Source of the DNA: Nymphaea colorata | Taxonomy: Eukaryota; Streptophyta; Magnoliopsida; Nymphaeales; Nymphaeaceae | Reading direction: 5' to 3' | Length of the DNA: 64,000 nucleotides | Assembly: GCF_008831285.2 (NCBI RefSeq) | Contig: NC_045149.1 | Span: forward strand, 22,140,535-22,204,534 | Shown: positions 29,435 to 56,815 of the stretch, one piece after another | Layout of the letters: the number at the start of each line of letters is the position of its first letter | Position numbering within the stretch: position 1 is the first letter of the stretch | Program-made: the position numbers and the translations under genes | Notes under the pieces: generated by a model | Seen by the model: the letters and a program-made list of their open reading frames with translations, nothing else | Told to the model about the DNA's origin: nothing | The model's database searches: none

Positions 29435-30908
29435 TTGGTTAATTGGTCTCTCATGCACTATATTAGCCTCCAAATGATGTTTATTTTAGAACCCTACAAC
29501 TAGTTTCGTGGATGATCTTTGTCATGTCGTTTCTTTATCAATTTCTGCAATTAGGGACGGAGGGAGGGGGGGGGGGGGTGAGCGCAGGATTTTTTTTTTT
29601 TACATTGAAAAAATCAAATTTTTTTAGTTTAGCCTGACCGGTCGCTCCTCGTCGCTCCTCTTGGCCCGACCCGCGAATCGTCTTGGCCCGACCCTAGAAA
29701 AAATCCTGGCTCCACCCCTGTCTGCAATAGTTAAGTAACATAATGTATTGTGTGGTACAGTAGACAAAAAATTTAATAGACTTCTAGTGCTTGTTTTCTC
29801 TTAGACTTTCTTCCTTTTTTTCCTTCCATTCTAAATACAATTCCATGATAGAAAATTTTGGTACTGTTGGTGATGATGTCAATGGTCGTATGGATTAGTT
29901 GTTTGCCGTTGCACTAGAAAAGATTAACACTACAGTAAAGATTAAAGAAGAAGCTAGAATCTTTCTCAAAAGATTACATATCTAACATTATATGTACATT
30001 TCACATAAACAGACCAATGAAGATCCCATGTCCGCAATGACTGATTGGAGTCAACTATTCATTCACATAAGCTAATTTTGTACTCAAATTGTATCGCCTT
30101 GCATCTTTCCCTTGTACTTAGTATGTACTTCAATTTCGTTTTTGCAGTTATGTGCCTTCTTCATGCAAAAAAAAAAAAGTGCAGGACTGCATAAAACTCA
30201 CATAATAGGCACTTCCACTAAGGCCTATATGCACTTTTTATAGGCTGAGGACATAGTGCATGTCTCATTGATCCATGATCCTAATGTGCAATAAACACCA
30301 TGAATAGAAGAAACTATGAGAGTTTTGATAGTAACAAGGATTGCTTTTTTTAAATTTACGGACAGGCAAGGAATCAGAGAAAGGTGCAAATATATTGGAA
30401 GCAATAATATAATGTAATGAAGGCTATTAAATTTCAACTAAGATGGCAAGATCAAAAATATACCTGTGCATTAGGGAATTGATTATCCTGATCCAACAAA
30501 CCACAAGCTTTTGTAGCTTATTTGACAGGAGGACTCGTAGTCATAGGAAATGTTCTTTTTTTTTTCAAAAAAAAAAAACCTTGTTTTATACTTCAAAAAT
30601 AGGTTTAAAAAACCTGTCTTTTAGGAAAAGACGGCAAAATGAAAACAACTCCAAGAAATATGAAAAATCCACATTTTTTTCACAAGTTTTGGTGTTCTTT
30701 TTGCATGTTCTATTACTTCATTTTTATTTTCGCATTTTGTAGGAATTTTTGTTTCAATTTTTTAAAATTTGTCAAGACTTTCCCAAAAAAAAAAAAAACA
30801 ACTTTGTCGTATTTTACTCAAGAAAAACCTTGCCATTAATGACCCATAAACGATTTTTCGACTAGGGCAGGAATACATTGCAGGTGGCACCACTTGTCTT
30901 TTGCGATT
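29435..30908 (-). repeat. Inverted copy of EPSPS intron-3 sequence (left arm)
   Basis: Read on the minus strand this block follows EPSPS intron 3 from about 36374 to 37860. Examples are 'gcaaatcgcaaaagaca', 'aagtggtgccacct', 'gtcaagactt', 'attctaaatacaa' and 'ttggaggctaat', in matching order. The arms are about 1.47 kb and separated by about 5.5 kb that holds rearranged EPSPS fragments and the 5' half of the intact gene. A hAT-type MITE (29552-29720) interrupts only this arm. Confidence 0.75.
29552..29720. mobile_element. hAT-type MITE with 8-bp target duplication
   Basis: TCTGCAAT stands at 29544-29551 and again at 29721-29728, an 8-bp duplication as made by hAT transposases. The ends are TAGGGACGGAG and, reverse-complemented, CAGGGGTGGAG. 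CAGGGG(C/T)GGAG-type ends are known from plant hAT MITEs. The matching stretch of EPSPS intron 3 near 37575-37590 has one 'gcaat' site and no insertion, so an empty site is present in the same window. Confidence 0.75.
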
Positions 30909-31110
30909 TGCTTAGTTTTGCAGAGACTGATATACGCAGGATGGGCGAAGAGGTAAGTGGAGGACACAAAATTACTAAAGACCGCTCATAGTTAGAATGA
31001 GTTTGTAGTGTTTTCCTACACTTAATATTAAAAAGAGTTAGCATCTGTAATATTTGTTTTGTTTGATAGGTAGAAACACAATGTGACAGTCGATATAGGA
31101 AGGCTTTGGT
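30909..31110 (-). pseudogene. Inverted EPSPS 5'-flank/5'UTR-like fragment
   Basis: On the minus strand this reads 'gtgtcctccacttacctctt' followed by a 'cgtatatcagtctct' word. That corresponds to the leader found upstream of the partial EPSPS copies at about 49930-50040 and 54070-54180, and more loosely to the intact gene's leader at about 34620-34660. A nearly identical block lies at 56496-56670. The junction at about 30908 joins this leader directly to inverted intron-3 sequence. Confidence 0.55.
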
Positions 31111-31344
31111 CTTTCCGAAGCACGTAATTCTTTGTGTTCTTGTGTGCCTAAATCCCTTCTTCTTCTTCTTATTATTGGGGGCTTGTGGTTGCATTTTTCC
31201 CCAGCAAAGGCTACCAAAGATGGCAACTAGATCCCCTCTGACTGATGCAGATGAAAGCAATTCAGGAGGGGTCAAGAAGGGAAAAACTTTTGGCTGCACC
31301 ACGGAAAAGATATGTTTTGGTTGAAATCGAATGTTTAGTGCTAA

Positions 31345-31965
31345 TAATTCAAAAATAATTTAAATTAAAACTACCATAGTCGCAAACTCTAAGAACCTAG
31401 TGTGGCAAATCCATTAAGCCTTTATTATATGTGACATGGCACTTTCATTAGCCTAATTGCCACACACACATCCACTCACACACAAACACAATATTTGATG
31501 CATTTATCAAATCTTTTTATATAGCACATACTGTATATTTCTATTAGTTACTCCTCTTGTGCTTCCTTTTTTCTGGTTGTTTGCAGTTAGGTCCAACAGT
31601 TGGAAAAAGGTCAGATTATTGGATAATCACTTCCCCAAAGAGGCAGAATGTCCTAGCTACTTCCAAGTTCTACAAAGTGTCGCAAAGCACTAGGGAAGTT
31701 TATCCTTTCTCATGCTAGGTCTCTTAAGCAATTTTAGAACAATATGACTTAATCCGGGGCCTGTAATTTTTCTGTCTGTTGAAGAGCCCCACATTTCGAG
31801 ATCAGAGAATCTTAAAAGAGGCAAGAGATTGAGGATTCATAAGCACCTAAGGATGCAAAAGGCAATGGTGGTAGTCAAAGTCATTTGAGTCTATTTTCGT
31901 TTTCCTTTTCTCCTCTTTATGTTGGTGGAACTGCAGCCATCCTACCCTCATCTGTTATTACTAGT
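31345..31965 (+). pseudogene. EPSPS fragment: intron-3 end, truncated exon 8, 3' flank
   Basis: The end of intron 3 (as in 38335-38518) runs straight into the end of intron 7 and an exon-8 copy at 31587-31693, so exons 4-7 are missing. The exon copy starts LGPTVGKRSDYW, lacks about 115 internal bases including the part coding for YDDHR, and ends at a TAG in the same place as the real gene. About 270 bp of downstream sequence follows, parallel to 39963-40245. It cannot encode an active domain. Confidence 0.85.
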
Positions 31966-31984
31966 TGAGTTGGACAATGACTAT

Positions 31985-32880
31985 TTGTAGTGGTCAGTTC
32001 CTCGTGGCAAAGAATTCAGCAAAAGAGGTTGAACTTTTCTTGAGAAATGCAAGGACTGTGATGTGCCCACTGACTGCTGTAGTTGTTGCTTTTGGTGGAA
32101 ATACAAGGTCTGTCCATCTACAGTTTCTTATGTTAATTCAAAGAGGAAATGTTTTAGTGAGGTCCTTTGTTGTTACGTTATGTATATTTATGTTTTTGTT
32201 CTAACCGATTTGCAAAATCTGCTTCTCGATTCAAATACGTAGATGATAATGATCTGTTTTTAGACAGTTTCAATTTTAAGTCTTTGTTTCTCTCTTTTGG
32301 TAAGCACTAATCGTACCAATTTCTAATTGTTAAGATGGTGGACTTTCCTAGGTTACTGTTGCTTGTCCTCCATTGTAAAACTTCCTCTAAAGTTTGAATT
32401 ACTTAATTTCTCAACATATTAGTGAGAAGGAGACGCCACTTTAAACATCTTTAAATATTTGATATGGCCCTACAAATAAGTGTTCCATGTTATGGTCTCC
32501 TCTTAGGACCTTGTATGCAGAAGTTGTCAAATCTAATAAGCAATTGTGGAGAGTTTTTTCTTTACTATTACAAGGAATCGCAGTGAACTTGTTGTTGCCA
32601 TTAGGCAGTCATCCTTTATGCTGATTGGTTGACTTTGTCAACCTCTTTTGGTAGGTTGAGCCCTCCTTTGTTAGTAACATGGTAATCTCTGTTATTTTAC
32701 TTGGTAAAGTCTTGACAAATTTTAAAACATTGAAACAAAAATTCTCAAAAAGAAAATGCAAAAAAAAGTAGCAAAAAAACACCAAAACCTATGAAAAAAT
32801 GTTGTTTTTTCATGTTTCTTGGGGTTGTTTTCATTTTGCCATTTTTTTCTAAAAGGCAAGTTTTTAAAACTCATTTTTGA
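31985..32880 (+). pseudogene. EPSPS fragment: exon-2 part, intron 2, intron-3 start
   Basis: This begins inside exon 2 ('tgtagtggtcagtt', as at 35338). The glyphosate-site segment is altered to LFLRNARTVMCPLTAVV, losing the first Gly, the second Gly and the Arg of the conserved GNAGTAMRP. It passes the exon-2 donor at 32107, runs into intron 2, then jumps over exon 3 into intron 3 (as from 35697). It stays parallel until the shared core repeat ends near 32880. It lies directly after the exon-8 fragment, so gene order is permuted. Confidence 0.85.
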
Positions 32881-33714: not shown

Positions 33715-33990
33715 AAGAAATCGGATTAGGATTTAATAAATGACATAGATGAATATCAGATCGAATTTGGATAAGGATTCGGATCGGATTCAGTTTTAGA
33801 CAAATATCCTCTATCTAATACTTGAAAAATGACAAAATCGGATTCAAAATTCAGATTTGGATATAAATATAAAAAACGGATTTGGATTGTAAAATCGAAT
33901 TTCGGATTCAGATATGACTTTGCTTTATCCGAATTTAAATCTGAATCTAAATCTAACTATATGAATATCAAAAAAACGAATATAATTAAA
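33715..33990. repeat. Degenerate 'aatcggattcaaa' repeat, copy 2
   Basis: It is built from variants of 'ggatttggat' and 'gaatctaaatc', as at 13830-14215 and 57425-58310. It begins 'ttaagaaatcggattagga'. Confidence 0.55.
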
Positions 33991-34711: not shown

Positions 34712-39962
<5,251 letters not shown>

Positions 39963-40707: not shown

Positions 40708-41095
40708 TGCACACTCTTTAGGAGTTGGGTGCAAGAATACTCACGTGTTTGAGGAAAAAAAACACCATTTGGAGGCTAATTTAGTGTGTGGGAGACCAAT
40801 TTTGTGTTTAAAGTAAAGTTTTTTCACTGCTAAAATCGAAAAGACTTCGAATTTACCTTATATTATCTTTGGGAAAATATGGGTTGCATGACCATAATAA
40901 AGATAATATATGTGTGTGTGTGTATTTATTTATTAATGGTTATATGCACTAAAAGATATGATGATCATGCACAAAAGTACTGCTAGTTAGACATGTTTAA
41001 GTGGAGGACATATTTTTTGTTTTTGTAATTAATATCTGTGGGGCGAACCCCTTACATTTAAGTTGCTCTGATTGACGTAGAAGATGGTGGTCTTG
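40708..41095 (+). repeat. Direct repeat, downstream copy
   Basis: This is parallel to 37775-38085 inside EPSPS intron 3, including 'ggagttgggtgcaag', 'gggagaccaattttgtgttt', 'catgtttaagtggagga' and 'tttaagttgctctgattgac'. A (TG)n and AT-rich stretch near 40890-40970 is absent from the intron copy. Confidence 0.8.
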
Positions 41096-41755
41096 TGCAT
41101 TTAACTGCTTTACCAGCTTAGCTTCTTTGAGTTTTAGTTGTAGAATACATACGGAACAGAGCAATGCATTTAGCATATTTCGGTTAATTGGCTCAGTTAA
41201 GTTGAAAATGAAAATGATCAACTGACTCAATAAACTTAACATGGTTCACTTACGAATTTGGTAACTCATACGAAAGCTTGACAAGCCGTGAAGATGCACT
41301 AACACTATCAGAAACCCGACTGTTACAAGAAACAAGTATTTTAAAACTAGATTTGTTACTGAAACGAGTTATCTAACATGTTCCTTGTGTCGTGCAAATG
41401 GGCCACTAGATGGTCAACTGAGAGGGGAACCTACTTTGTCTAAGTGAGCTCATTTTTTATATTTTTCCATGGCCAAGCCGGGGTTAAGCAGCCTTCTACC
41501 AGACTATGCAAAAAGATGAACCCTGGGTGTCAAATTCTTAACCTCCTCCAACTCAAAAGTCTTAAGCAGACTCCATAGCCAGGTGTACGGTGCTCTTGTT
41601 GGCATGCAGCTGGAACATGCCTTCCAAATTCATTGGCCTTGATACTAGAGTTCTGAAATGGAACGACCAATTTTTTTACTTGGTCGTCCAACTCAATCTG
41701 CATGGTGTTTTAAGGCTACTCTATGGAACATGAAAATCATGGAAGAACACATTAC

Positions 41756-44605
41756 CTTCTCTTTTGCTCTTAGTGTGCCTGACTGAGATAATGCGACCAG
41801 TGGGGGCACAACTCCTTCCTGCAACACCAGGCTGGAGTAACTCTGGCTATTAATGCAAAGATGCAACAAGGCGGCAGCTGCAGTCTCTTTACCCCTTTGA
41901 GATCCAAACGCAACAACCTCTGCTAATGCTGGAATCCCACCCTCCTCGCAAATAGTTGATCGGCCTTCTGGGGTCATTGATAGATTTGCCAAAACGACAA
42001 AAGCTTTATCAATCATTCCTGCTTCTGGATCCATCACGAACTCCACGAGCAACTTGACAGCACCTGCCTGGATTATGCTTGCTTTGTTCTCATGAAAGAT
42101 GGATAGATTAAAGAGTGCAGTGGCTGCATCTTTCTTTCCTCTAAGGGTTCCTTTACCAAGAAGTTCAACCAACGGACAGATAGCGCCAGATCTCCCACTC
42201 TTGGCCTTGTATTCCTCCATAACTGAGAGGCTAAACAAAGTTGCAGCAGAGTTTTCTTTGGCTTCAGAATTTCTTGTTTTCAAGATATGAATGAGAGGTT
42301 CAATCACATATGCTTCAGCAATTCTACATTTGTTTTCATCATTTATCGACAAGTCCAGAAGTGCTGTCCCTGCATTTTCCTGTGTCTTTTTATCTTGAGA
42401 ATATAATAGAAAAACTAATGGAGCTATAGCTCCACATTCTGCAATCATTACCTGGCTTTCCATATTATACTTTGCCAAAAGCCGAAGCTCTTCTGCTGCT
42501 GCCGTTTGTGATCCAATTGATTGGCTATGAAGTTTCAATCAATTTTTTAAAATGTTCAACAGTTGTTGAAGCTGAGGCATCCTCACGTCTATAAGATGGA
42601 AGTGAAGATGCATGCTTTCGAGGAACAGTACTATCACCAGCCTGTGCCTGGTTTCCTGAATTATGCACTCGTCCAGGCAACCAAGTGGGGGAAACATGAC
42701 GGAAAGATGTAATTTCTCCAGGGGCCTCATTGCTATCGTACTTGCCTCAAAACCTGGTTGCTTCATTCGAATCTTCTGTACCCACTGCATGACTATACTC
42801 AATGCTAGAAATGGCACTTGACAGTGATCAGTCTGGCTATGGTCACTGGATTGGTCACATGATGAAAGGTTGCTGGGTTTACTTTCTGATACCACCATAC
42901 TTGGAATTCCTCATCGCATGCCATGACTCCCTTTCTTCTCTACGTAAAGGAGTTTCCATTTTGAAACGATAACAGTGCCATCTTTCTGAATTGACATGTT
43001 CCTAACTCTTTGAGAAATTGAACTGTGATCACTCAATACTTCATTGCTGCCAAGTACTGATTGGCTGTATACAGGGCCTCATCAGACCTAACACTCCTAT
43101 CGCGTGGAAGGGCTTTACTATCTCGAGAATCCAAGACTGTTGAAGGAACATTAGGGTATGAATGCTGGTGATCTACTGACATGAAGGAAGGGAGGAAAAG
43201 AACATTGTTCATCTCACACCAATTCAGAATAAGTCCCTTAACTGTGTCATTAGGAATGAGATCACAGTGAGCAAGTGATTGGCGTGTCTTCGGGCAAGTT
43301 CTTAAGCCATAGTCAAGCCACTTCTGAATGAATGCCCTTTCAAATGTTTGTCCGGAGGCCACAATAACTGGATTAATCATCAACTCGATTGATAATGGGC
43401 AGCAAAAATGTGCAGGAACTGCCCTGCCATCATTAAGTCTGGATTTATTCAAACTGATGCAACCAGGAATGTGGCTGACAAGGACAATAATCTGACCAAG
43501 ATAGTGCATGTCTGTTCTTTCTTTTGATAATTCAGCCTTCTCCTTTTCCTTCTCCAAAGCAACACTTTCCCTGAATAACTCCTGGTTAAATGCCAAACCA
43601 CGCAGTTCCACAATTTTCATCAAATTATCTGATCGGGGTCTGAGATTGTCTCTCTGATCTCTCAGAGCTTCGATGAATTCTGATGCTTGTCCCTGTTCCA
43701 TACATTGAAGTTCCTGCATACAGTGCTGACACAATTCGAATTCTATCAGATGCCATTTGTATGCAACCAGTCCTAAAGCTGTAAAAACCAGAAAAAATCA
43801 AAGTTGATAGAAGAGCATATGAAAAAAACAAACATTAATGATAATTCTATAATACCTCAATTGCAGGAGAGAGAAGCAATCTGTTCAGTACACAACAAAT
43901 TCCCACAAAACTTTTTTGAACCTTCATCACCACTGGCTCACTTCTGAAGACCTGGGCAAAAAACTTCCAAGAGCTACTTCATGATTTTGGGGACAAAAGC
44001 TAGCTTATGATGTAGAGAGGTTTCACAAACAAAGATACACTGAGACGTGAAGCTTTTTACATCTTTCTCTAATGAACTCATACAACTAGGCACATGTTTC
44101 TCGAATGCACCATCAGACGTTGCATACTGGAAGCAAGAACTGCAAGCATGCAGATGCTGTAAAGGGAAAAATAACCACCCAGCACCGGATACTGTACAAA
44201 GTTCACGATCTACCACCTCATGCTAAGAAAATGGAACAGTTAAGAAAATGATGGGTCAATTTTAGTTTATGGATGTGCTATGATGCAATCCTTTCACATG
44301 ATCATATGTTTATTCTCCTTTCTTATTAGCCATTCGGATCTCATCTTCATCTTCATTACTGCATTCAAGTATAAAGTTCTATTCTTCTCATGGGTGTGGG
44401 TGTGGTGTTCTACTCGACTCGGACACAGTGTCAGGTAAAGTCAATGGATTCAAGTCTATTTTTGCCCAAATATGGACCCAGTCAACCTTGAATTCAGTTC
44501 TGCCCCCTTTTTTGGGTTAAATAAAAACCAATGGGACTCTTACTCCTCTTCATTTTCACTTTGCAGGCCTGAGAATGCTCCTTTGAGTGCTTTTATAGCA
44601 CATCC

Positions 44606-44676
<71 letters not shown>

Positions 44677-45890
44677 TGTGTGTGTAGTATTTCTATCTTA
44701 TAATTTTTTTTCAAAAAATAACTTCATTCTGTCAGCCAAATGAATGTTTCATTGAATGCAAGTATTTGTAATGTACTTTTTCCTGTTTCCTGAAGAAAAC
44801 AGAGTTGCGAATTGTGGTGCTGTTTTTTCAACCTTTTATTTTCTGCACTGCTCTGACTGTGTTGATTTTCTCATTTTCCATAATGCAAATTATCCTATTG
44901 TTGAATGATGCATTTAAGCTTTTTAATTGGTTTATCTAAGAAAAACTTAGAAAACAAGACAAAGAATGAAGATAAGAGGTTTAACTAGCCTAAAAAAATA
45001 TATGATACCTTCCAATATAATAAGCTGCAAAGCTCCTCCCCGTCCCACCTGTCTCTCTCTCTCTTTTGGAGCCCATCATATTACAAATGACATTCATTGT
45101 TCATGTTACATTTGATGACCAGACAGTAACTGAAAGTTGGTTATTCATGTTGTATTTGATGACCAGACACTAACTGAAAGCTAAGAGTGACAACTCTAAC
45201 GATCTCCTGGGGTAAGAATAGGAATGACGCCCAAATCCAGTTTGCACATGTAACAAGAATTACCCCAGTACCACATCAAATGTTACAAGTCTTGGATACA
45301 ACCATTGAACAAAAAGTAAGGGGTTTAACCAAAGATGTGATATGGGAAAAAACAAACAATGGTAACTACATGAGGTGTTTATGCAGTGAATGGGATTACT
45401 TCGAAGGAATGTACATAAACCGAATGCAGTTGACACAACATTCGAGGCACTTCACTTTTTAAAGGAATAAACAGATGATGGCAATGGCAGCAACTCATCA
45501 GTGATTTTCTCGGCAATGTTAGCATAACACACACAATTTTCTGAAACATATAGTTATTCAAGAAACACTTTCCGTACTGGGAAGCATTATACTAGAAGCA
45601 AGCTCCAGGTTGGCAAGCATAAAGCAAGTGAAATGGGACATACATTTAATATCTTACTCATTTTGGGATTCCAGTTTTCAATGACATCCCTGGCCTCATT
45701 AACCACCAAATCCAATTCCTTAAATTCCACAAGTATCTCCTCTTAGTGTACGTTGAACTCAATGGCCTCATCAAGCATTGGCCTCAAAAGCTTCAGATGT
45801 CAACTATATTTCTGTAGTCTTTCTGAAGTGGATCTAGTTTCATCATGGTCTGTCAGGCAACTAAATGAATATATCTAGAAATACTGTTGG
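41756..45890 (-). pseudogene. UND/U-box/ARM-repeat E3 ubiquitin ligase, decayed
   Basis: Right to left: an N-terminal exon at about 45890-45658 ('KLLRPMLDEAIEF', then an in-frame TAA, then 'VVNEARDVIENWNPKM'); an exon at about 43953-43857 ('VFRSEPVVMKVQKS'); and the U-box exon from 43778 ('FCCPLSIELMINPVIVASGQ', 'CPKTRQSLAH'). Stops or frame changes follow near 43033, 42915, 42755 and 42535. The ARM repeats then run openly at about 42530-41756 ('NAGTALLDLSINDENK', 'ENSAATLFSLSV', 'GKKDAATALFNLSI') to 'GTLRAKEK' and a donor. The usual last exon was not found. Intact relatives (plant PUB-ARM family) ubiquitinate receptor kinases and other targets. Five or more lesions argue for a pseudogene rather than sequence error. 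Confidence 0.82.
44608..44685. repeat. (CT)n(GT)n compound microsatellite
   Basis: About 25 CT units are followed directly by about 13 GT units. It lies in an intron-like part of the ligase pseudogene. Confidence 0.95.
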
Positions 45891-48800
45891 CTAGAGCTTC
45901 ACCAGTCATATTTCCCATCAGACCTGTTCCAAAGAAGCAACATGACAGTAGTCGCTGGACAATATCAGAACAACCTTATGATTGAAGAAACAATGCAAAT
46001 GCATGCAACTAATCATGCACATGCACCACCATGAATGCATGCATGTGTTAAAGCACAACTTCATGCAGATAGTTTCTGAAACAGCTCATTCAAAAGATCT
46101 TAAGATAAAAATTACTATACATGTTTGTGCCACTTGAACAGTCATAGTAGACAGATCACCTGAATCAGATTAAACCCATAGTTTCTTAAAATTAGTAAAA
46201 CAAAAAAAAAACACAATTGAAACTTCTATTGCTTTATGCAGGCTCATTATTACATCACCCTCTTTAGCTTGAAAGCTTTTCTTTTGAGCATAAGAAAGAT
46301 TTGCTGACACCAACTAAATCTTCGAAGTTTAATTTTCAAAAGTGTCGGGCTTATCAAATATCAAACCTTTCAACATTAACAAGATTGACGTTCACGCTTT
46401 TTATCCAGATAATAGATTATATCTTGAATTTAATTTAAGCTAGCAATTTATGAGCAAAATACTGCAGTTCTGCTTTCCAAAACCTTCGTTCCGGGTATAC
46501 GATAGATCTACATCATTTAACAAAATTTTCAAATTTTAATCAACTCTCTCAAACTCATCAAGAACCAGACCCTCCAACACCATCAAGACAACTCAAATGT
46601 TTGCCTGTACTTTTCAAACCACTTCATGGCTAGTCACGCCAATCGACATAAATAATCAGGTAAATATTATTGATCGACTTCTTCATGCACAGCTAGTTAT
46701 AGTTAAGAAGGATAAAAGGATAAGGATTGAGGTAGCTTGACGCAAGGCAAGTAAACCATGAAGGCAAAAACACAAGTAATTAGGAGTCATTGGAGCAATT
46801 TACAATCATCCCCGAAAACATTGCTTAGTCAAATGAATGGACAACGTTTCGCATACACCACAGTGGAAGACATCGATGATTACTGTAAAAAGCCCATCTA
46901 ATCGTTGGCGAGTCCCAAAAATAAGACTAAAAGTCTCGTGTTGTGAAAATGTACAAACCACCAATCCATCTTTCTCATTCATTGTTCAAAACCATCTACA
47001 TAGCATAACTCCCAAAAATATTACTCGTTCTTGATTGTGTTTTTTTTCGGCCCCCATCGTTTTATGGAGGGCGTTCGCCAGTTCAGTGTCTTCAATGAGT
47101 TCTCCAAGAAAGTGAAAGGAGAAGCCAAGAGGTAACTGTTTTGTCCTTATTCCTCAATACGTATCATTCTTTTTGGATTGGGAAATTAGCTTCTTTTATG
47201 TGTTTTTGTTCTATATGGTCGATGGGGTGTTTTGGGCATTTGTCTATTAGCTTGGTGGAGAATGAAGATTATTGTTTTACAGGACTCCATTTTTATGCTT
47301 GTATGTTTCAACCTCTATTTTGTGCATCTACTTGCTAATCCTTGTTATTTTCATTCGCTTTGATTGCCAGTGGAAGTTGGCACTCGATTGGGCGGCCTAT
47401 GGTTCTTAGCATAACGACGTTTGTCGCCTTTTCTTTTGTTTATTATTCGTCATTTCTGCTCATCATCAATAAGTTTTTATCTAATCGATATTCTTGAAGT
47501 TGGTTGCTCTTCCAAAAAGGGAGAAATGGAGCTTCTTGGTCACTACGTGAAACTGATTTTAGTTGGCCATTTAGTTATTTGTATTGAATCAACTTACGAT
47601 TGCAAAATATCAAGTTCAGCTAAGCCATCTATACCAGCAGAATTACTCGGTTAGGCATGTCCATATTATGTTATCTGTTCTGTATTACTGTAGTCTAACT
47701 TGTTTTTAGTTTCCTCATTGTGGCAAAGTGCTGTTGCAGAGCAAGTTGGTGGGTTATGTGCTCTTCTCCATAATCTTTTTATTATTTGAAGAATGCTGTG
47801 ATGCATTCACTTTTTCATGCTTATTCCTGCTAAATTGCTAATGTATTACTCTGTACAAATGCTTGGTTCTCCACCAAACCGCCAGCCGTGTTTTCAATTT
47901 GCTTACCTTTTTGCAAATTTCTTCCAAACAGAAATTCTATTTCCATATCGCTAGAGGAATTGTGCAAGTGGTTTTCCACATAGTGACTGAATATTTTTTT
48001 GTTATTTTTTGGCATGGAAGCGACTTTTGTGGATGAGGCTGGCTTATTACATCACAAGATGATAATGAAGTTGTGAAAATGTTCAATGTCAATACATATA
48101 AAATGAAAACACTCTCGACTCTCATTCATAATCTTCATCATATTCATTCTCATCCTCATCTCCATCTTCTTCTTCATCTTCATCTTCTTGATTTAAAAAA
48201 CCCCTTTTCTCCCAATGGGAATCAGTCATCCACACACAAATCCATGGTTTAATCAATGATTTCAAGGTGAAAATCAATAATTTCCCTCCAAGGCGGCACA
48301 ATCTCTAAGGTAGAAATGAAGAATGGGTGGGTTTTTATAATGGAAACTTAAAAAAAGGGGGTTTGGGCCCCCATTTTTTTGAAATCAGCCTGTATCATAC
48401 GTATCGTACGATACTTGTACGATACACCCCCTATTTACGATACATGAGGTATATTATATCGTATTTTGTAAATGATACGATACGTTGATACAGTCTCGTA
48501 TTGTACGATACGTACAACACTGCCTACGAGAATGAATGACATTCGTCTCAAGTACAACATGCTGCATAATTTTTAACCTTAAAGGGCTTCTTATATTTCT
48601 TCATTTTCCTGTACTAAGGAAATGTAGTTCTGGTTCCTTTCTTGTTGATGTTCACTTTACTGAATCTCTGGAAATTTGGTCACAATGGATTATTTTATGG
48701 AGTTTTATATGGATTTAAATTCTTTGTTGTATGAAGGAAATCATATATTAATAAAAGATTTCTCTAATTCTTAGTTGTGTCCTCTCAAGAAGGGGAATAG

Positions 48801-49236
48801 GTGCTTGTAGATATTGGTGTTGTCTAGTATGCCATGATAGTATATCCTGTATCTTGGCAGAATTTTCTTGCTTTAAGATTCAAAATTTCAAACCATTACA
48901 AAAGGTTCTGTTTCTTCCTCTCAAGGAGGATAAGATAAGTGATGCTCATTGTGACTTTCTGGCTGTAGATTCATTGGTTTAGGCGTGGGTGGTGTTTTTC
49001 CAATAAGTTATTTATTTTGTTAGTATTTATATAGGATAAAACTCCATATACCCATTTTCTTTCTTATTTTGTTTGTCTACTTGTTACTTCTATCTTTCGC
49101 AGGTTTACTATTTATTCTCTATATCACAGAATGCAACCTCCTAATATTGCTCATCACAAGCTTCACACTTTTGGCATTCTCAATCATCACCAGTGCTTGC
49201 TTTCTGCCATGTGTTCATGTTGCTATCCTGTTGAAA
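45891..49236. other. Mostly non-coding stretch with possible orphan exons
   Basis: AT-rich sequence without a recognised gene. An exon-like start lies at 47064-47131 and an exon-like block at 49103-49235 (see separate entry). A 'cgtatcgtacgatac' type low-complexity repeat lies at about 48390-48520 and a 'cttcatcttcatctt' tract at 48140-48190. Confidence 0.45.
47064..47131 (+). other. Possible orphan first exon
   Basis: An ATG opens a short frame, MEGVRQFSVFNEFSKKVKGE and three more residues, ending at a good donor (AG|GTAACT). The amphipathic sequence looks protein-like. A possible phase-compatible partner is 49103-49235 (acceptor 'tttcgcag', donor-like CTG|GTATGAG at its end), which stops exactly where an LTR-like fragment begins. 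I do not recognise the family and no complete gene can be built. Confidence 0.25.
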
Positions 49237-49402
49237 AACTGGTATGAGCAATTGAGACGGATCGTCTCGATATTTCCTTTCAAGTTTTGTTTTTGTTTTT
49301 GTGTGTATGTCTCGGTTCAAGACGTTAAAGAACCAAGACAATGTTAACACTATTTAAACTCTTTGTTAAGGGATAAAGCCTAAGCTTTTGGAATGTTAAT
49401 AC
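49237..49402 (+). mobile_element. LTR-like fragment C
   Basis: It starts TGAGCAATTGAGACGGATCG and follows the first about 165 bp of the LTR-like repeats at 52909 and 55150. After 'gagtttgatc' similarity ends. The stem 'gtctcggttc..gaaccaagac' is present with one mismatch. Confidence 0.65.
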
Positions 49403-49689
49403 ATGTTTGAGTTTGATCCATGAATTGGGCCAAGATTGAGCTTCTTGATACAACATTTCTTTTGCTCAAAGGTTCCTTCCGTTGCTATCTTCGTGTGTAT
49501 TCCCTTTTTGTTGTTTTTGCATTTGACTAGTGGAATTGTGATTTCGGTTCTTTGAGTAAAGGCTGGTTATGATCATGGTTGCTCTGACCTCTTCTCTTCC
49601 TTCTAACCAACTTTGAATTGGCTTGCGAAGACAAGAGTAGCAAGGTTCAATTTCAAAAAAGAGAAAAGTAGGACCATGTGAGACTGGTC

Positions 49690-50302
49690 AAGGGTCCATC
49701 CATCTGCCATCACCGTCTATTCGCAATGACGGTCCTTTTAAAAAAAAAAAGTTTAATTTAAAAAGGGTGCATTAGTCCTTTTTTTAATTGTTATAATATT
49801 TTTGAAGGGAGACTACAATTTGAGAAAATATGTCAAAAAGTTTATGGAAGAGTCCTGTTGTTATTCAAAACTTACACTGTAGTTTGTTATTCCTCAGTTG
49901 TTTGTAATTTTGTGTATTCAACCTACCTTATCGTCATCCTACGTATATTAGTCTCTATCATTCTCCTCCCTCATACACCAGAGAGGAAAGTCAGCCACCA
50001 CCCCTGCCTTTGATTGCCGCAGTATGAGAGGAGGACAGTGCTATGGCTTCGTTGCATTCCGCATTGCCGGCAAAAAATGCGGCGCAATCCCGCCACGAAG
50101 CGATAAAGAGCGCCTACCTCTGGTCGAGGTATTCCGGAGCACCAGCGACGGCTCTTCTGTTGGAGGGATGCAGAAGGAGAAGGCTCTCCTTCATGTTGAT
50201 GAAGACATAGACATGCAAAGGACAATAGTAGAAGGTCGTAGTAATCAGTTCCTGATGGCAAAGAATTCGGCAAGAAAGGTTGAACTTTTCTTGGGACATG
50301 CC
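49690..50302 (+). pseudogene. EPSPS fragment: promoter, leader, exon-1 part fused to exon-2 part
   Basis: Upstream and leader words of the intact gene are followed by an exon-1 copy from an ATG at 50043 ('ATGGCTTCGTTGCATTCC'). Near 50190 exon 1 stops inside its coding part ('aaggctctccttca') and continues inside exon 2 ('gttgatgaagacatagacat'), so both exon ends and intron 1 are deleted. It ends at 50302 in 'cttgggacatg', where the Gly-Asn-Ala coding segment begins. The frame is broken. Confidence 0.85.
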
Positions 50303-50640
50303 TCATCACCCATGCTATGTATATCCGTCTTTATCCTTCTCCTCTCTCATACACCCGAGAGGAAAGTCAGCCACCACCTTTGTCTTCGGTTATCGCAGTC
50401 TGAGATGATGACAGTGCTATGGCTTCGTTGCATTCGGCATCACCGGCAAAAACGCAGCACAATCCCACCATGTGGTGATAAAGAGCGCCTACCTCTGGTC
50501 CATGTATTCTGTAGTACCTGCGAAGGTTCTTCTGTTGGAGGGATGCATAAGGAGAAGGCCCTCCTTCAAAGGAGGGTTGGCTTTTCAGATCAAGGTTGTT
50601 GCTGCCACGGAGAAAAAGGAGGATGAGCTGGCTGGTCAAA
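50303..50640 (+). pseudogene. EPSPS fragment: leader and exon 1, second copy
   Basis: Leader-like sequence ('cctcatcacccatgctatgt') starts directly at the end of the preceding exon-2 piece. An exon-1 copy follows from an ATG at 50419 through 'ttggcttttcagatcaagg' to about 50634, near the start of the mature-enzyme region. The same exon-2/leader junction occurs at 54068, so a whole unit was duplicated. Confidence 0.85.
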
Positions 50641-51190
50641 CCGGCGAGCACCACTTCCTACAGCCATAGTTCACCCTGTGTTTTACGTATCACGACTGAA
50701 GCCGTATCGTTGATTGTTGCCAGAGCAAGAAGAATCCATACCAGATCAGCAGCTTAGGCCCTACCATATATTAAGAAACACATATATAACAAGATAAGGA
50801 TAGGCAATGCTGAGATACTGGTAGAATGGGAAGGTGTCGATAGTAGGACTTCTTGGGAGCTTTACGATAATGTTATCCTCTGGTTTCCAGAAGCACGAGC
50901 TTTGACACAAGCTCGATCTCAAGAGGGTGGATCTGATACGACCCTACATAGCCCTATGGTGAGGCTGCCGAGAGTAGTCGAACCCAACTGTTCACTCCCG
51001 CGACATGTGATATGTGCATTGTGGAGGACAGATGAGCATCAAAGGAGGTTAAGACAGATGAGCATCAAAGGAGGTTAAGGGATGGGCAGATTCAGTTAAA
51101 AGGCAGCATTCAGGAGATTACTAAAACTGTCAGAACACAAAAGAGGACCTAGACCCGGCAGAGACTCAGCCCACTGAGTGTAGTATCCGA
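50640..51190 (+). mobile_element. Ty3/gypsy integrase chromodomain tail, copy a
   Basis: This parallels the open chromodomain at 54480-54766 ('gagatactggtagaatggga', 'tgggagctttacgataatgt') but carries stops. A local tandem duplication of 'gatgagcatcaaaggaggtt' lies at about 51023-51078. Downstream text equals the stretch that precedes the LTR-like repeats. Confidence 0.65.
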
Positions 51191-51317
51191 CCCTAGTTAA
51201 TCAAAGGCAGCCTAGGGCAAGCTAGGCAAGTTCCCAGGCTGAACCCGACCAGGTGAGGCCGTGCTACCATTGGAAGACTGAGTCGCAGCACCCAGACAAG
51301 TCCCCCTTCGGACCAGA

Positions 51318-51720
51318 CAAGTTCTCTAGATTTGTCCCTTAACCTCCTTGATGTTCATCTGTCCTCCACAATGTACATCTCACATGTCGCATGTGTAAAT
51401 AGTTTGGTTTTGCTACTCTCGGCGGTCTCGCCGGCTATCCTCGGCGTAGGGTTAGGTAGGAGCATAAGATCCACCCTCTTGAGATAGAGCATGTCCCAAA
51501 GTTTTTGCTTCAAGAAACCAGATGATAACATTATCGTAAAGCTCTCAAAAGGTCCCACCGTCGACACCCTCTCATTCTACCAGTATCTCATGCCTTGCAT
51601 GTCATTCTCTTGTTACGTATGTGTGTCTTAATATGTGTTAGGGCCTAGGCCACTGATCAGGTATAGACTCTTCTTACTCTGGCAACACCAAATAATATGG
51701 TTTCAGTAGTGATATGAGAA
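51318..51720 (-). mobile_element. Chromodomain tail, copy b (inverted)
   Basis: It reads on the minus strand from 'ggtgttgccagagtaagaag' through the chromodomain to 'aaatctagagaacttg'. It is the inverted partner of 51930-52312, forming arms of about 400 bp with a spacer of about 200 bp. Confidence 0.75.
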
Positions 51721-51771
51721 ACATGAAGTGAAATAAAGCTATAGAAGGTAGTCTTAGTCGGGATTGATGCA

Positions 51772-51860
51772 GAAGGAGAAGACCCTCCTTCAAAGGAGGT
51801 TTGTCTTTCCAGATCAAGTTCATCGTTGCCACAAAGAAAAATGAGGATGAGTGGTTGGGC
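51772..51860 (+). pseudogene. EPSPS exon-1 fragment
   Basis: The segment 'agaccctccttcaaa' to 'aaatgaggatgagtgg' matches exon 1 near 34860-34930 (residues of about 50-72). It sits in the spacer of the inverted chromodomain pair and leads into the same text as the fragments at 50640 and 54410. Confidence 0.75.
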
Positions 51861-51929
51861 ATAACGGTTATAACTACCTCCAACAGCCTTAGTCCACCCC
51901 GTGTTTCACGTATCACGACTAAATTATCA

Positions 51930-52312
51930 TTATTTGTTGTAGCCAGAGCAAGAATAGTCTATATCTGATCAACTGCTTAGGCCCTACCGCATATTAAGAC
52001 ACAGATACGTAACAAGAGAATGACATGCAAGACATGAGATACTGGTAGAATGGGAGGGTGTCGATGGTGAGACCTCTTGGGAGCTTTACAATAATGTTAT
52101 CATTCGGTTTCTAGAAGCACAGGCTTTGGGACATGCTCGATCTCAAGAGGGTGGATCTTATGCTCCTACCTAGCCCTATGCCGAGGAAAGTAGGAGAGGC
52201 CACCGAGAGTAATGGAACCCAACTATTTACACCTGCGACATGTGAGATGTAGATTGTGGAGGACAGAAGAGCATCAAAGGAGATTAAGGGATAAATCTGG
52301 AGAACTTTGTCT
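51930..52312 (+). mobile_element. Chromodomain tail, copy c (direct)
   Basis: It contains 'gagatactggtagaatggga', 'tgggagctttacaataatgt' and 'aagcacaggctttgggacat', ending in 'aaatctggagaactttgtct', which is also the end of the inverted copy b. Confidence 0.75.
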
Positions 52313-52514
52313 CTAAATCTCTCTCAGTGGTGGCAAAGCTGAAACCAGCAACGAATAAACTATTCTCATATTTCCCCACTTCAGTAGTCCGATTTGAAGG
52401 AGGTGACCAAGGTCTCCTCCTTGGAGGATCGGCGGTGAGAATGATAAGCTGATCGAAGAGACCTCCTCATTGGAAAGTATCTCCTCCTGACAAATCAAAC
52501 AAACAAACCAAATC

Positions 52515-52908
52515 AAACTTTGGGACATGTTACATCTCAGGAGGATGAATCTCATATGGTCTTACCTAGCCCTACACCGAGGACAGCCGGCGAGGATGTT
52601 GGGAGTAGCCAAGCCCAACTATTTACACATGCGACATGTGAGATGTGCATTATGGAGGACAGAGGAGTATCAAAGGAGGTTAAGAGACAGGTGGATTCAG
52701 TTAAAGGACGGCATTCAGGAGTACTCAAACGACCTAGACCCGGCAGAAACTGAGCCCACCGAGTGAAGTGTCTGACCCAAGTTAATCAAGGCAACATAGG
52801 CAAGTTCCCAGGTTGAACCCGACCGGGTGAGGCCGCGCTACCATTGGAAGACCGAGTCTGGGCGTCACCCAGACAAGTCCCCCTCAAACTCACAAATTCT
52901 GAGACGTT
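52515..52908 (+). mobile_element. Retroelement 3' internal region, copy d
   Basis: It starts within the text after the chromodomain ('gggacatgttacatctcagg') and continues through 'gaggccgcgctaccattgga' to the LTR-like repeat at 52909. The chromodomain itself is missing. Confidence 0.6.
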
Positions 52909-53787
52909 TGAGCAACTGAGACGGATCGTCTCGGTATTTCCTTTCATGTTTTGTTTTTGCTTTTGTTTGTCCGTCTCGGTTCAGGGCGTTAAAGAACCGA
53001 GACAATGTTAAGACTATTTAAACTTTTTGTTAAGGGGAAAACTCTATGCTTTTGGAATGTTAAAACAAGTTTGAGTTTGATCTCTCCTGCCTCCATCTCT
53101 CTCTTCTTTGAATACCGGTTGCGCCGAAATTTCTCTTGGTGAACCAGTGGCTTCCTTTTGTTCTACTTCTTCTTCTTCATCTAGATCTCTCCTCTCCATA
53201 GCCGATTGGATTAACGATTGAAGAAGACGACAAGTGGCAACCAGCAATCCCTTGCGACCATTCAACCCTTGCAAATCCCCGACCAGCACACACGAGTCTC
53301 TTCACGGTGCAATCTCCCTCCATTCCAAGGGTGATTAGAGGTCGGAGGTGATACCTTGAAAGATTGTGAAGGAAGAAGAAGCCTGTGGTTCTGGCGGACT
53401 CCTACCTCACGACGACAACTACTGAGAGTTTTAGAATCAAGACAAGTAACCTGTATCTCCACTGTTCTTCTCTTTTCTAAGATTGATTTTATTACATCTA
53501 GTCGACTACAACCTGGCATGCATATTTCCCTTGTCCCATCATGGAACGGGAGTTGTAGATTCGACGATTGAGACTACGATCTTGGTGGAGCTACTCTGCA
53601 GAAAGCCATAGTTGAATCGAAGACCGCAGCCAGCCATTCAGCTGATGGTTTTCCTCAGATCTTCTCGGCTGGATAGCGAGATAAGTCCCTCACCTTGCGC
53701 ACCATTCGATTCTCATTTTAACTTTGCTTTGGTGTCGAGACTTTGGAGATCCTAGGCGACCGGCCAACTATGAGAACAATTCTTACA
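52909..53787 (+). mobile_element. LTR-like repeat A
   Basis: It begins TGAGCAACTGAGACGGATCG and ends about '..acaattcttaca', so the limits fit TG...CA. It is paired with repeat B (55150 onward), also preceded by the same internal text. The repeat includes a 'gtctcggttc..gaaccgagac' stem. Immediately after its end an EPSPS intron-1 copy begins. No classical initiator-Met primer-binding site was seen after it. Confidence 0.6.
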
Positions 53788-54068
53788 GTTGGATTCATTA
53801 TTGAAGCTAATAGGCCAACTATTGAGGGTGCCAAGAACAGTTTTGTTTTTAAAGAAAAAGAAATTGTTTTTTTTTAATGCAAGGCATTCAAATTGTTGTT
53901 GGGAATATTTTCTCTAGGGAACAACTTCGGTGGACAACTTAGATGATATTCATTATATTTTTAATCCTTTGAAAAAACAAAGACATGCAAAAAGCATAGA
54001 AGGTTGTAGTGGTCAGTTCCTGGTGGCAAAGAATTCAACAAAAGAGGTTGAACTTTTCTTAGGAAATG
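53788..54068 (+). pseudogene. EPSPS fragment: intron 1 and exon-2 part
   Basis: It starts 'gttggattcattattgaagc', identical to intron 1 at about 35098, keeps the exon-2 acceptor, and covers exon 2 with internal deletions ('caacttcggtggacaactta', then a gap, then 'ggttgtagtggtcagttcct') to 'cttttcttaggaaatg'. The frame is broken. Confidence 0.85.
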
Positions 54069-54410
54069 CCTCCTCGCCCATCCTACGTATATCAGTCTCT
54101 ATCCTTCTCGTCTCACATACACCAAAAAGGAAAGTCAGCCACCCACCCCTGCCTCTGGTTGCCGCAGCCTGAGATGAGAACAGTGCTATGGCTTAGTTGC
54201 ATTCTGCATCGCCGGCAACAAACGCAACGCAATCCCGCCATGTGGCAATAAAGAGTGTCTACTTCCGGTCGTGGTATTCAGGAGCACCAGCGACGGTTCT
54301 TCTGTTGGAGGGACGCAAATAGAGAAGGCCCTCCTTCAAAAGAGGTTTGGCTTTCCAAATCAAGGCATCGCTACCACGGAGAAAAAGGATGATGAGCTGG
54401 TTGGGCATAT
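54069..54410 (+). pseudogene. EPSPS fragment: leader and exon 1, third copy
   Basis: The leader is joined to the exon-2 piece by the same junction as at 50302. An exon-1 copy follows from an ATG at 54188 (stop after two more codons) to 'ggatgatgagctgg' near 54400. It runs into retroelement sequence. Confidence 0.85.
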
Positions 54411-54766
54411 TGGCTTGCACTACCTCCTACAGCCTTGGTCCACCACGTGTTTCACGTATCACGACTGAAGCCGCATCATTGGTTGTGTTGCCAGTGCAAA
54501 AAGAGTCTATATCTGATCAGCGGCATAGGCCCTACCGCATATTAAGACACACATGCATAACAAGAGAAGGACAGGCAAGGTATGAGATACTGGTAGAATG
54601 GGAGGGTGTCGATGGTAGGACCTCTTGGGAGCTTTATGATAATGTTATCCTCCTGTTTTCAGAAGCACAAGCTTTGGAACAAGCTCGATCTCAGGAGGGT
54701 AGATCTGATACGGCCCTACCTAGCCCTACGCTAAGGACAGTTGGCGAGGCTACCGGGAGTAGCTGA
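54347..54766 (+). CDS. Chimeric open frame: EPSPS exon-1 remnant plus Ty3/gypsy chromodomain
   Basis: This is an uninterrupted 139-codon frame. The first residues, MAFQIKA, are in the EPSPS frame; a 1-nt loss then shifts the exon-1 part. From about residue 57 the frame reads the C-terminal part of a Ty3/gypsy integrase. 'PYRILRHTCITREGQARYEI' is followed by 'LVEWEGVDGRTSWELYDNVI', with the W-x(8)-W pattern of chromodomains that bind histone marks and guide integration. The N-terminal catalytic part of integrase is absent. There is no evidence of expression, and it may be a fossil. Confidence 0.5.
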   Translation: MAFQIKASLPRRKRMMSWLGILACTTSYSLGPPRVSRITTEAASLVVLPVQKESISDQRHRPYRILRHTCITREGQARYEILVEWEGVDGRTSWELYDNVILLFSEAQALEQARSQEGRSDTALPSPTLRTVGEATGSS

Positions 54767-55149
54767 GCCCAACTATTTATACCTGCGACATATGAGATGT
54801 GCATTGTGGAGGATTGAGGAGCATCAAAGGAGGTTAAGATGTGACATATGAGATGTGCATTGTGGAGGACGGAGGAGCATCAAAGGAGGTTAAGAGACAG
54901 GTGGATTCAGTTATAGGGCGGCATTCAGGGGAGTACTCAAACGGTCATAGTACAGAAGAGAACCTAGACCCGGCAGAGACTGAGCCCACCGAGTGAAGTG
55001 TCCGACCCAAGTTAATCAAGGCAACCTAGGGCAGCCTAGGCAAGTTCCCAAGCTGATCCCAACCGGGTGAGGCCGCGTTACCATTGGAAGACCGAGTCTG
55101 GGTGTCACCCAAACAAGTCCTCCCTTAAACTCACAAAGTTTGAGATGTC
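54767..55149 (+). mobile_element. Retroelement 3' internal region, copy e
   Basis: Text after the chromodomain is parallel to 52600-52908. It contains a local tandem duplication of about 62 bp ('gacatatgagatgtgcattg' at about 54789 and 54843). Confidence 0.65.
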
Positions 55150-55850
55150 TGAGCAACTGAGACGGATCATCTCGGTATTTCCTTTTATGTTTTGTTTTTG
55201 CTTTTATTTGTGTGTCTCAGTTCAGGACGTTAAAGAACTGAGACAATGTTAAGATTATTTAAACTATTTGTTAAGGCGTAAACCCTAAGCTTTTGGAATG
55301 TTAATACAAGTTTGAGTTTGATCTCTCCTGCCTCCCTCTCTCTCTTCTTCAAATACTGGCGCCGCTGAAATTTCTCTTGGTGAACCAGTGGCTTCCTCTC
55401 GTTCTACTTCTTCTTCTTCGTCTAGAATCTCTCTTCTCCATGGCTGATTGGATTAAAGATTGAAGAAGACAGCAGACGACAACTGGGGACCCCTTGCGTC
55501 CCTTCAACCCACACAAATCCCCGACCAGAACGCACGAGTCTCTTTATGGTGCAATCTCCCTCCATTCCAAGGGTGGTTAGAGGCCGGAAGTGATACCTAG
55601 AATGGCTGCGAATGAAGAAGAAGCTCATGGTTCTGGGAGACTCCTCCCTCACGACAACAACGACCGGCAGTTTTAGAATCAAGGGCAAGTAACCGGTATA
55701 TCCATGGTTCTTCCCTTTTCTAAGACTGATTTTATTATATCTAATCTACTACAACCAGACATACATCTTTCCCTTGTCCGATCATAGAACGAGAGTTGTA
55801 GATCCGGCAGTTGAGACTACGATCTTGGTGGAGTTGCTCGGCGGAAAGCC
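55150..55850 (+). mobile_element. LTR-like repeat B (truncated)
   Basis: It begins TGAGCAACTGAGACGG and follows repeat A up to 'gagttgctcggcggaaagcc', where similarity ends. It carries the stem 'gtctcagttc..gaactgagac', in which both partners of one base pair differ from repeat A. Confidence 0.6.
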
Positions 55851-56204
55851 GGAAAGGAGCAGCAACAGAGATGGTGCCATTCATGCAATAGACACGTACT
55901 ATGCAGATGTCGAAAGGAAGGTGTTGTCCAACATCGAGGTGTCGAGACGGTTGCTGTGTGCATGGAAGGGTGGGATGTCAAAAGCAGCGGCGGTCGCAAC
56001 GGTGATGAAATGAAGCTCTTGGCATTTCTTATATGTATTATATCATCTGCATTGCAGTGTGGCTGGCTTGTAAAACCTTTGCTTTCAACAGGAGGATCTA
56101 GTTTCCATCCTTGGCAGCCTTTGCTGCGGAAAGATGCAACCATACACCCCCAATATTAAAAAGAAGAAGAGATTTAGGTGCACAAGAATATAAAGAATTA
56201 TTTG

Positions 56205-56545
56205 CTTTGGAAAGACCAAGGTGGCGGCCTTGATCTGGAAAGCCAAACCACTTTTGATGGAGGGCCTTCTCCTTCCTTATCCTTCCAACAGAAGAACCGC
56301 CACTGGTGCACCGAAATATTTCGACCCGAGGTAGGTGCTGTCCATCGTCCCATGGCGGGACTGGACCGCAATCTGTACCTACAATGCAGAATGCAACAAA
56401 GCCATATCTCCATCCTCCTCTCAGACTGCGGCAACCAAAGGTAGGGGGGCGTGGCTGATTTCCCTCTCTGGTGTATGAGAGAAGAGAATGATAGAAATTG
56501 ATATACGCAGGTTAGGCGAAGAGGTAGGTGGAGGACACAAAAGAC
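56205..56545 (-). pseudogene. EPSPS fragment: leader and exon 1, inverted
   Basis: On the minus strand the leader ('catacaccagagagggaaat') precedes an ATG at 56405. The exon-1 copy continues to 'ttccagatcaagg' near 56225. The frame is broken by indels. Confidence 0.8.
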
Positions 56546-56670
56546 CGCTTATAGTTAAAACGAGTTTGTAGTGTTGTCCTACACTTCGTATTAAAAAGAG
56601 TTAGCATCTCTAATATTTGTCTTGTTTGATTGGTAGAAACACGATGTGATGGTCGATATAGGAAGGAGGA
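56496..56670. repeat. Block shared with 30925-31110
   Basis: The text 'gatatacgcagg', 'gaagaggtaggtggaggaca', 'taaaaagagttagcatct' and 'gatggtcgatataggaagg' parallels 30925-31110 in the same orientation. It connects the inverted leader to the next exon-1 piece. Confidence 0.7.
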
Positions 56671-56815
56671 GGATGAGCTGGTGTTGCAGCAGCCCATCAA
56701 CGAAATCAGTGGGATCGTTAAACTTCTTGGCTCTAAATCTTTGTCCTAGCTGCCTTTTAAGAGGTGTTGTTGTTTCCTACTTGCTCTCATTGGAATTTTT
56801 TTATCTTTTCATTTT
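56671..56815 (+). pseudogene. EPSPS fragment: exon-1 end and intron-1 start
   Basis: It begins in 'aggatgagctggtgttgcag' and covers the KLPGSKSLS region, with a stop created after 'AAATCTTTGTCC'. It passes the donor and ends in 'cttttcatttt', as at about 35079. The rest of intron 1 occurs separately at 53788. Confidence 0.8.

Follow-up and report, generated by a model that had tools for sequence, protein, structure and literature searches.

Relics of EPSPS and of its neighbouring genes around an intact EPSPS gene of Nymphaea colorata, probable remains of duplicated multi-gene segments

Intact EPSPS genes and EPSPS relics

The DNA analysed here, a window of 64,000 nucleotides of Nymphaea colorata (C12:22140535-22204534, contig NC_045149.1; coordinates without contig prefix are window positions), carries an intact EPSPS gene, EPSPS-1, with EPSPS-derived blocks on both sides, at 29441-32880 and 49690-56850 (Table 1). 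EPSPS-1 has standard splice sites and a coding sequence of 1539 nt (512 codons, a single terminal stop) that matches PF00275 in Pfam with 460 bits (E=1e-137), in agreement with a preliminary description, made from the bare sequence, which had recognized one intact EPSPS in the window. It is not the sole intact EPSPS of the genome, since a PF00275 search of the 407.8 Mb (783 contigs) gave 16 matches, seven at EPSPS-1 and six at a second complete gene, EPSPS-2 (C12:15732731-15737244), located 6.4 Mb from the window on the same chromosome. EPSPS-2 is intact, with 509 codons, 472 of 508 aligned residues are identical to those of EPSPS-1, and both proteins share the same 13-residue motif, which we take to be the glyphosate-sensitive form. 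The three remaining matches fall in a further PF00275 gene (C13:9070024-9072879, minus strand), presumably a MurA-like enolpyruvyl transferase.

When a 6.9-kb EPSPS query was compared with the rest of the window, 17 matches summing to 4,167 bits were obtained, and at the same threshold none of 20 sequences from a first-order Markov model matched. The matches persist with the dust filter of BLAST switched on, so that they are not a matter of low-complexity words. The ten EPSPS fragment intervals listed in the preliminary description were all recovered, with shifted edges, by self-BLAST, BLAST against EPSPS-2 and masked exon BLAST, two of them only in part: within 30909-31110 the EPSPS leader occupies 30923-30989 and the rest belongs to a neighbouring stretch, and 49690-50302 is EPSPS-derived from 49901, the preceding part (49690-49900) showing weak likeness to EPSPS-1 upstream DNA, through a single 37-base match (92%) and some shorter matches. 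Beyond those intervals, the window also contains intron 3 sequence in inverted orientation (29441-30922) and pieces derived from other genes (49418-49524, 55851-56142, 56888-57053 and 31186-31312).

The relics cover the gene very unevenly, with a depth of five over exon 1, three over exon 2 and one over part of exon 8 (108 of 219 bases). As already noticed in the preliminary description, exons 3-7 have no relic coverage elsewhere in the window (0/154, 0/215, 0/118, 0/208 and 0/62 bases), and the best stray match in an exon-by-exon BLAST with EPSPS-1 masked was of 35 bases (E=0.01). Because the absent exons fall in two gaps (4102-4319 and 6329-7529 of the EPSPS-2 stretch L001), two deletions suffice for their loss. 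Pieces of introns 1, 2, 3 and 7, the leader and the 3' flank are all present among the relics, and since introns were kept there was no mRNA intermediate, which rules out processed pseudogenes. The earlier statement that no fragment can encode the enzyme was likewise confirmed, given that no relic has exons 3-7 and that the exon 1 frame, read from the EPSPS start codon, extends for 55 codons in U0, 19 in U1 and 2 in U2, and ends after 8 codons in relic C (by eye from the alignment). Coding capacity is lost, and no relic suggests a product.

Table 1. Features of the window and related repeats at the EPSPS-2 locus (L001 and L003 are stretches at or upstream of EPSPS-2)
Feature	Position	Strand	Basis
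Relic A1, inverted piece of EPSPS intron 3 (source 36375-37653), plus a brief stretch matching the repeat around 37773-37943 and the copy of that repeat 3' of the gene	29441..30922	-	BLAST vs self and EPSPS-2
Dispersed repeat, ~145 bases, many genome copies, interrupting A1	~29576-29720		
Relic A leader, 5' leader of EPSPS between intron 3 and stretch X/Y, fused to both	30923..30989	-	
X/Y, piece of DNA that is found ~10 kb upstream of EPSPS-2 (L003 2452-2625)	30990..31312	-	
Relic A3, ends of introns 3 and 7, exon 8 parts, 3' flank; exons 4-7 deleted	31382..31987	+	
Relic A2, exon 2 (3' half), intron 2 (start) and intron 3, with exon 3 lost by deletion	31985..32880	+	
EPSPS-1, intact, 8 exons	34712..39962	+	splice sites, 512-aa open reading frame, PF00275
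EPSPS-1 exons 1-4	34712-35029, 35215-35459, 35543-35696, 38524-38738	+	
EPSPS-1 exons 5-8	38844-38961, 39055-39262, 39367-39428, 39744-39962	+	
~0.4-kb repeat copies, window	37772-38067, 40710-41092		
~0.4-kb repeat copies, EPSPS-2 locus	L001 5420-5862, 8103-8534		
U-box/ARM gene block adjoining EPSPS-1, matching upstream and downstream flanks of the EPSPS-2 locus	41094..49245	-	BLAST, Pfam
MDH-like gene fragment (exon edge + intron), source upstream of EPSPS-2	49418..49524	+	86% to C12:15726947-15727053
Relic U0, leader/exon 1 (49901-50193) joined to exon 2	49690..50301	+	
Relic U1, leader + exon 1, head-to-tail behind U0 exon 2	50302..50640	+	
Ty3/gypsy-like retroelement DNA (3' pol end, long terminal repeat, 5' leader) between U1 exon 1 and intron 1, assigned over part of the span (52313-52514, for example, excepted)	50650..53787	+	
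Internal 405-nt inverted duplication in U1 retroelement DNA	51348-51752 / 51873-52277		
Relic U1b, second copy of exon 1/retroelement junction, in loop of inverted duplication	51766..51860	+	
Relic U1 end, intron 1 + exon 2	53788..54068	+	
Relic U2, leader + exon 1; exon 2-to-leader junction as in U0/U1	54069..54410	+	
Second retroelement DNA copy, unit U2 (3' pol, long terminal repeat, 5' leader)	54419..55850	+	
Fragments of RING-finger gene + stretch X from upstream of EPSPS-2	55851..56142	+	
Relic C leader, inverted EPSPS leader/exon 1	56225..56545	-	
Relic C, end of exon 1 + start of intron 1	56662..56850	+	
Further stretch X fragment (L003 2116-2281)	56888..57053	+	

Fragments of neighbouring genes among the relics

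The window and the 10 kb downstream of it were compared with 89 kb around EPSPS-2 (C12:15679500-15768500), where the order is U-box block a, RING gene, stretch X, MDH-like gene, EPSPS-2 and U-box block b (RING and U-box/ARM are named from Pfam, MDH-like from reading the protein of a 61-residue exon without Pfam match). In the window, EPSPS-1 is followed by a U-box block and then by pieces of MDH, EPSPS, RING, X, EPSPS and X, the MDH-then-EPSPS order being retained at 49418-50301. Blocks a and b are 89-97% alike, that is, the block was duplicated at that locus, and the main part of the window block matches block a at 91% and block b at 89%. Upstream of block a, the 18 kb compared contain no EPSPS sequence except one 148-base match (70%) to intron 3. 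Genome-wide, the MDH-like query gave five matches (its source, the window and three elsewhere at 72-75%), and the RING/X query gave seven, all at C12:15.72 Mb or in the window. Because these neighbour fragments match the DNA upstream of EPSPS-2 and little else, the relic zone is built of the EPSPS neighbourhood and not of EPSPS alone; together with the U-box block on both EPSPS-2 flanks, they point to the decay of duplicated segments.

Three EPSPS-bearing DNA queries were also searched against the genome. Among the best candidates, which are those that such a search scores, EPSPS-derived DNA was found in the window and at EPSPS-2 only, bearing out the local clustering that the preliminary description had proposed to check, and no EPSPS pieces dispersed elsewhere were detected. 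All ten matches of the first query lie in the window or at EPSPS-2, and those of the other two (50 and 58) comprise in addition the retroelement part or one dispersed repeat of the query.

The mixture of MDH-like, RING and X fragments with the EPSPS relics, and the shared U-box block, do not support the repeated local capture of one gene that had been suggested at first. Capture by a transposon (Pack-MULE, Helitron or retroelement transduction) that dropped EPSPS pieces beside the donor gene would explain why there are three copies of the fusion between EPSPS exon 1 and retroelement DNA and why leader and introns occur among the fragments, as expected of DNA capture, but we regard it as distinctly unlikely, given that three neighbouring loci contribute fragments and that a genome-wide search with the chimaera found its EPSPS part only in the window and at EPSPS-2, and its retroelement part at other loci with 67-72% identity. 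Moreover, an inverted-repeat scan (14 pairs in 29.0-34.5 kb, 22 in 49.0-57.5 kb) revealed no bounding inverted repeats in these zones besides the EPSPS leader relics, which are the only long inverted pairs to extend across the second zone; no search was made for Helitron ends or target-site duplications.

Inverted copies of a repeat also flank the region, at 33700-34000 and 57898-58299, with a further copy at ~14.0 kb. A giant composite element bounded by the 33.7/58.0-kb pair was considered and rejected, because the repeat belongs to a dispersed family (1,374 candidates, 40 scored). A tandem duplication of ~182 bases (91% identical) lies nearby, at 58512-58875.

Shared junctions and retroelement DNA

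The stretch 49690-55850 can be read as three head-to-tail units, U0 (leader-exon 1 / exon 2), U1 (leader-exon 1, retroelement, intron 1-exon 2) and U2 (leader-exon 1, retroelement). The exon 2-to-leader junction (50301, 54069) is common to U0/U1 and U1/U2, and the exon 1-to-retroelement junction is present in three copies. Zones A and C have 30922-31234 and 56094-56666 in common, including the X-to-leader junction, and because they share it the X-to-leader fusion was probably made once and then duplicated. Zone C (55851-57053) combines the 5' end of EPSPS with pieces of RING and X; relic C resumes where the inverted leader ends, so that ~0.5 kb was inverted in place. The retroelement DNA follows the order 3' pol end, long terminal repeat (LTR), 5' leader of a related element, L004, whose LTR pair is 83% alike and which contains protease, reverse transcriptase and Tf2-1-like SH3 domains (RVT_1, RVP_2). 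The Ty3/gypsy-like type is deduced from L004, three open reading frames of the retroelement/relic zone in the window having no Pfam match.

An alternative origin for such a patchwork is filler DNA, in which repeated double-strand breaks near EPSPS would be repaired by copying nearby gene stretches in either orientation, a model offered for plant pseudogenes in an excerpt of PMC7935947. It accommodates the small pieces (36-167 bases for stretch X, 107 bases for MDH-like), their inverted order, the palindrome at 51348-52277 and the short overlaps at some break points. Nevertheless, it is an unlikely source of the whole zone, since blocks of up to ~1.2 kb, the MDH-EPSPS order and the U-box blocks on both sides fit whole-segment duplication, and the shared junctions indicate later duplication of already formed units. 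Five break points were inspected by eye. Where exons 4-7 were lost the overlap is 4 bases and where exon 3 was lost it is 1 base, the A3/A2 junction has 3 bases and the exon 2/leader junction 1, and U0 exon 1 meets exon 2 with an overlap of 0; these overlaps fit end joining, as weak evidence, only those of 4 and 3 exceeding what chance readily gives.

Divergence and age

Gap-free K80 distances (K) between EPSPS-1 and EPSPS-2 are 0.042-0.087 over five segments, those from relics A to either gene 0.098-0.150 and those among U-box blocks 0.034-0.096. In a joint alignment of leaders, some columns of which are flanks, the identity of relics U0, U1, U2 and C is 77-80% with EPSPS-2 and 67-70% with EPSPS-1, the corresponding values being 77% and 57% for the A leader, 71% and 68% for U1b and 84% and 77% for the exon piece of C. 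Since the A relics are 9-14% from the genes and the long leader relics 17-29% from each other, the copies appear too different to be duplicate contigs or haplotypes, which argues against an assembly artefact.

Any plausible plant substitution rate dates the divergence of the relics to millions of years. The preliminary description had also alluded to EPSPS copy number in herbicide biology; judged by such commonly assumed rates, the divergence (K of 0.04-0.15 per site among relics and genes) is far too old for herbicide selection and far older than glyphosate, and instead of the recent, near-identical functional copies of herbicide-type amplification the relics are broken. The glyphosate-sensitive form of the motif in both intact genes likewise gives a herbicide link no support.

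The relics of the U and C groups also show an excess of C-to-T changes at CG relative to the intact genes (15/76 vs 5/110; p=0.001, or p=0.0002 when scaled to T-to-C), with p-values that are too small because relic units share ancestry. Methylation decay at CHG in group A was considered as well (relics 17/73 vs genes 5/85, p=0.002) and set aside, as the value scaled to T-to-C was p=0.13.

The 5' end of EPSPS-1 (34290-35029) diverges from EPSPS-2 more than the remaining gene does: over the first 75 aligned codons the nonsynonymous (dN) and synonymous (dS) distances are 0.158 and 0.294, and beyond aligned codon 75 they are 0.017 and 0.096. EPSPS-1 is devoid of ~26 nt of 5' leader that are retained in EPSPS-2 and in relics U0, U1, U2 and C, and the 371 bases upstream of it matched only themselves in the genome search, apart from the 37-base match to the U0 upstream DNA. 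Exchange or gene conversion is a possible origin of this diverged end.

A further difference between the two genes lies in intron 3. The segment 36333-37289 of EPSPS-1 is missing from EPSPS-2, with a 6-base overlap, TTCATT, at the break (by eye); because of this overlap, its absence is read as a deletion in EPSPS-2, and its use as a shared insertion grouping the A relics with EPSPS-1 was rejected. A dispersed repeat of ~310 bases lies inside this segment. A ~0.4-kb repeat occurs both within intron 3 and just 3' of each intact EPSPS gene, and the U-box duplication at the EPSPS-2 locus begins no more than a few bases from where this repeat ends.

Inverted leader relics and an improbable small-RNA role

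Inverted and repeated leader pieces might constitute a natural source of small RNAs tuning both EPSPS genes, given that inverted gene copies yield small RNAs at PAI and VIM of Arabidopsis (excerpt of PMC13213937). Leader arms of opposite orientation are present (54069-54366 / 56227-56524, 77%), as is the 405-nt hairpin, whose loop contains a piece of EPSPS exon 1, and A1 and A3 have 125/1468 and 65/559 21-mers in common with EPSPS-1. On the plus strand of the two leader pairs tested, A-C outnumbers G-U (G-U vs A-C, 12 vs 32, p=0.004; 8 vs 20, p=0.04), which amounts to more G-U on the minus strand in both pairs, a bias on which no conclusion is built. However, the two biased pairs share the C arm and are 2 of 7 rows counted, and changes unique to single copies have no consistent direction. 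The arms of the big hairpin are retroelement DNA in which G-U and A-C are about equal (20 vs 18), and although the hairpin formed by the 951-nt stretch 51340-52290 is very stable (z -43 vs 20 shuffles), any inverted duplication would fold in this way. Each leader piece shares only 0-9 21-mers with a gene, and in the joint alignment the identity between the four long leader relics and the genes is 67-80%. A small-RNA source of this kind is thus highly improbable, and we give just as little credence to the proposal that relic small RNAs silence or tune one EPSPS gene and helped to drive the 5' divergence of EPSPS-1.

Probable decay of duplicated multi-gene segments

Taken together, the shared segments, the neighbour-gene fragments, the shared junctions, the inversion of the C leader and the divergence, all of which are directly observed, lead us to conclude with considerable confidence that the relics are decayed non-processed duplicates of a RING - stretch X - MDH-like - EPSPS - U-box segment. 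Like non-processed pseudogenes, they keep introns and flanks, the flanks of the parent are duplicated with them (MDH-like, RING, X and U-box) and coding is lost. The segment would have been duplicated in tandem, and a copy of the block would have reached its present site on this chromosome, 6.4 Mb from the window. In the window, EPSPS-1 and the adjoining U-box gene would have survived while the flanking copies lost function, and a Ty3/gypsy-like retroelement would then have inserted into a dead copy, between its exon 1 and intron 1, giving rise to a chimaeric unit (leader-exon 1/retroelement/intron 1-exon 2) that was repeated head-to-tail. Finally, deletions and small inversions from break repair would have scattered the remainder. 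The number of tandem copies, the order of events and the repair pathway are inferred.

Several points weigh against this scheme. There is no intact third copy of the segment, so that the tandem copy number is a deduction, and neither A nor B/C follows the order of a simple collinear duplicate; copying of filler DNA in break repair could account for the short pieces. The order 3' pol - LTR - 5' leader is unlike that of one plain retroelement insertion, a tandem element or a one-LTR circle being possible sources. Relics A are farther from the genes than the genes are from each other, which may reflect an earlier split, faster decay or homogenization of the genes, and C-to-T changes at CG are not clearly raised in group A (8/24 vs 4/18). 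Weak EPSPS fragments elsewhere could also have escaped the genome searches.

If the relics are decayed segments, the locus shows the loss of duplicates of an essential shikimate-pathway gene, in which copy number falls back and remains persist from which tandem duplication, the entry of a retroelement and break repair can still be read. Fragments near EPSPS do not represent copy number in the herbicide sense, and gene fragments near their parent need a check for neighbouring genes before transposon capture is claimed. The interest of the case is modest and resides in its readable chain of junctions and in the diverged 5' end of EPSPS-1.

Comparison with known systems

Literature searches for EPSPS with Nymphaea, or for EPSPS with tandem duplication and pseudogene, found no title on this locus. 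The closest parallel is with plant non-processed tandem pseudogenes, which similarly keep introns and flanks, lie near the parent and have homologous flanking DNA; tandem pseudogenes tend most to preserve flanking homology, as stated in an excerpt of PMC7935947. Here, in contrast, a gene has several relics, which were duplicated again together with a retroelement and shuffled with pieces from three neighbour loci.

Other EPSPS loci resemble the present one in structure and differ in outcome. In Kochia scoparia, as described in the available portion of PMC6808082, an EPSPS segment is in tandem with co-duplicated neighbours and mobile DNA, for which its authors favour a model of microhomology repair, but the copies are tied to glyphosate resistance and EPSPS is overexpressed, whereas the extra copies described here are broken and old. 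The EPSPS cassette of Amaranthus palmeri likewise places EPSPS among repeats, palindromes and gene fragments, according to part of PMC5240378; there the amplified unit carries a working EPSPS, unlike the window, where no working gene was amplified.

Fragments of one plant gene outside that gene are also reported for GIGANTEA in Lolium perenne (excerpt of PMC2702305), where they are associated with Helitrons, while none was found here, without a dedicated search for Helitron ends. Inverted copies of an endogenous gene are likewise known from PAI and VIM of Arabidopsis; in the excerpted text of PMC13213937, small RNAs were observed and the VIM arms show 100% identity across exon 1 and intron 1, whereas the leader arms described here are 77-79% complementary over their longest pairs.

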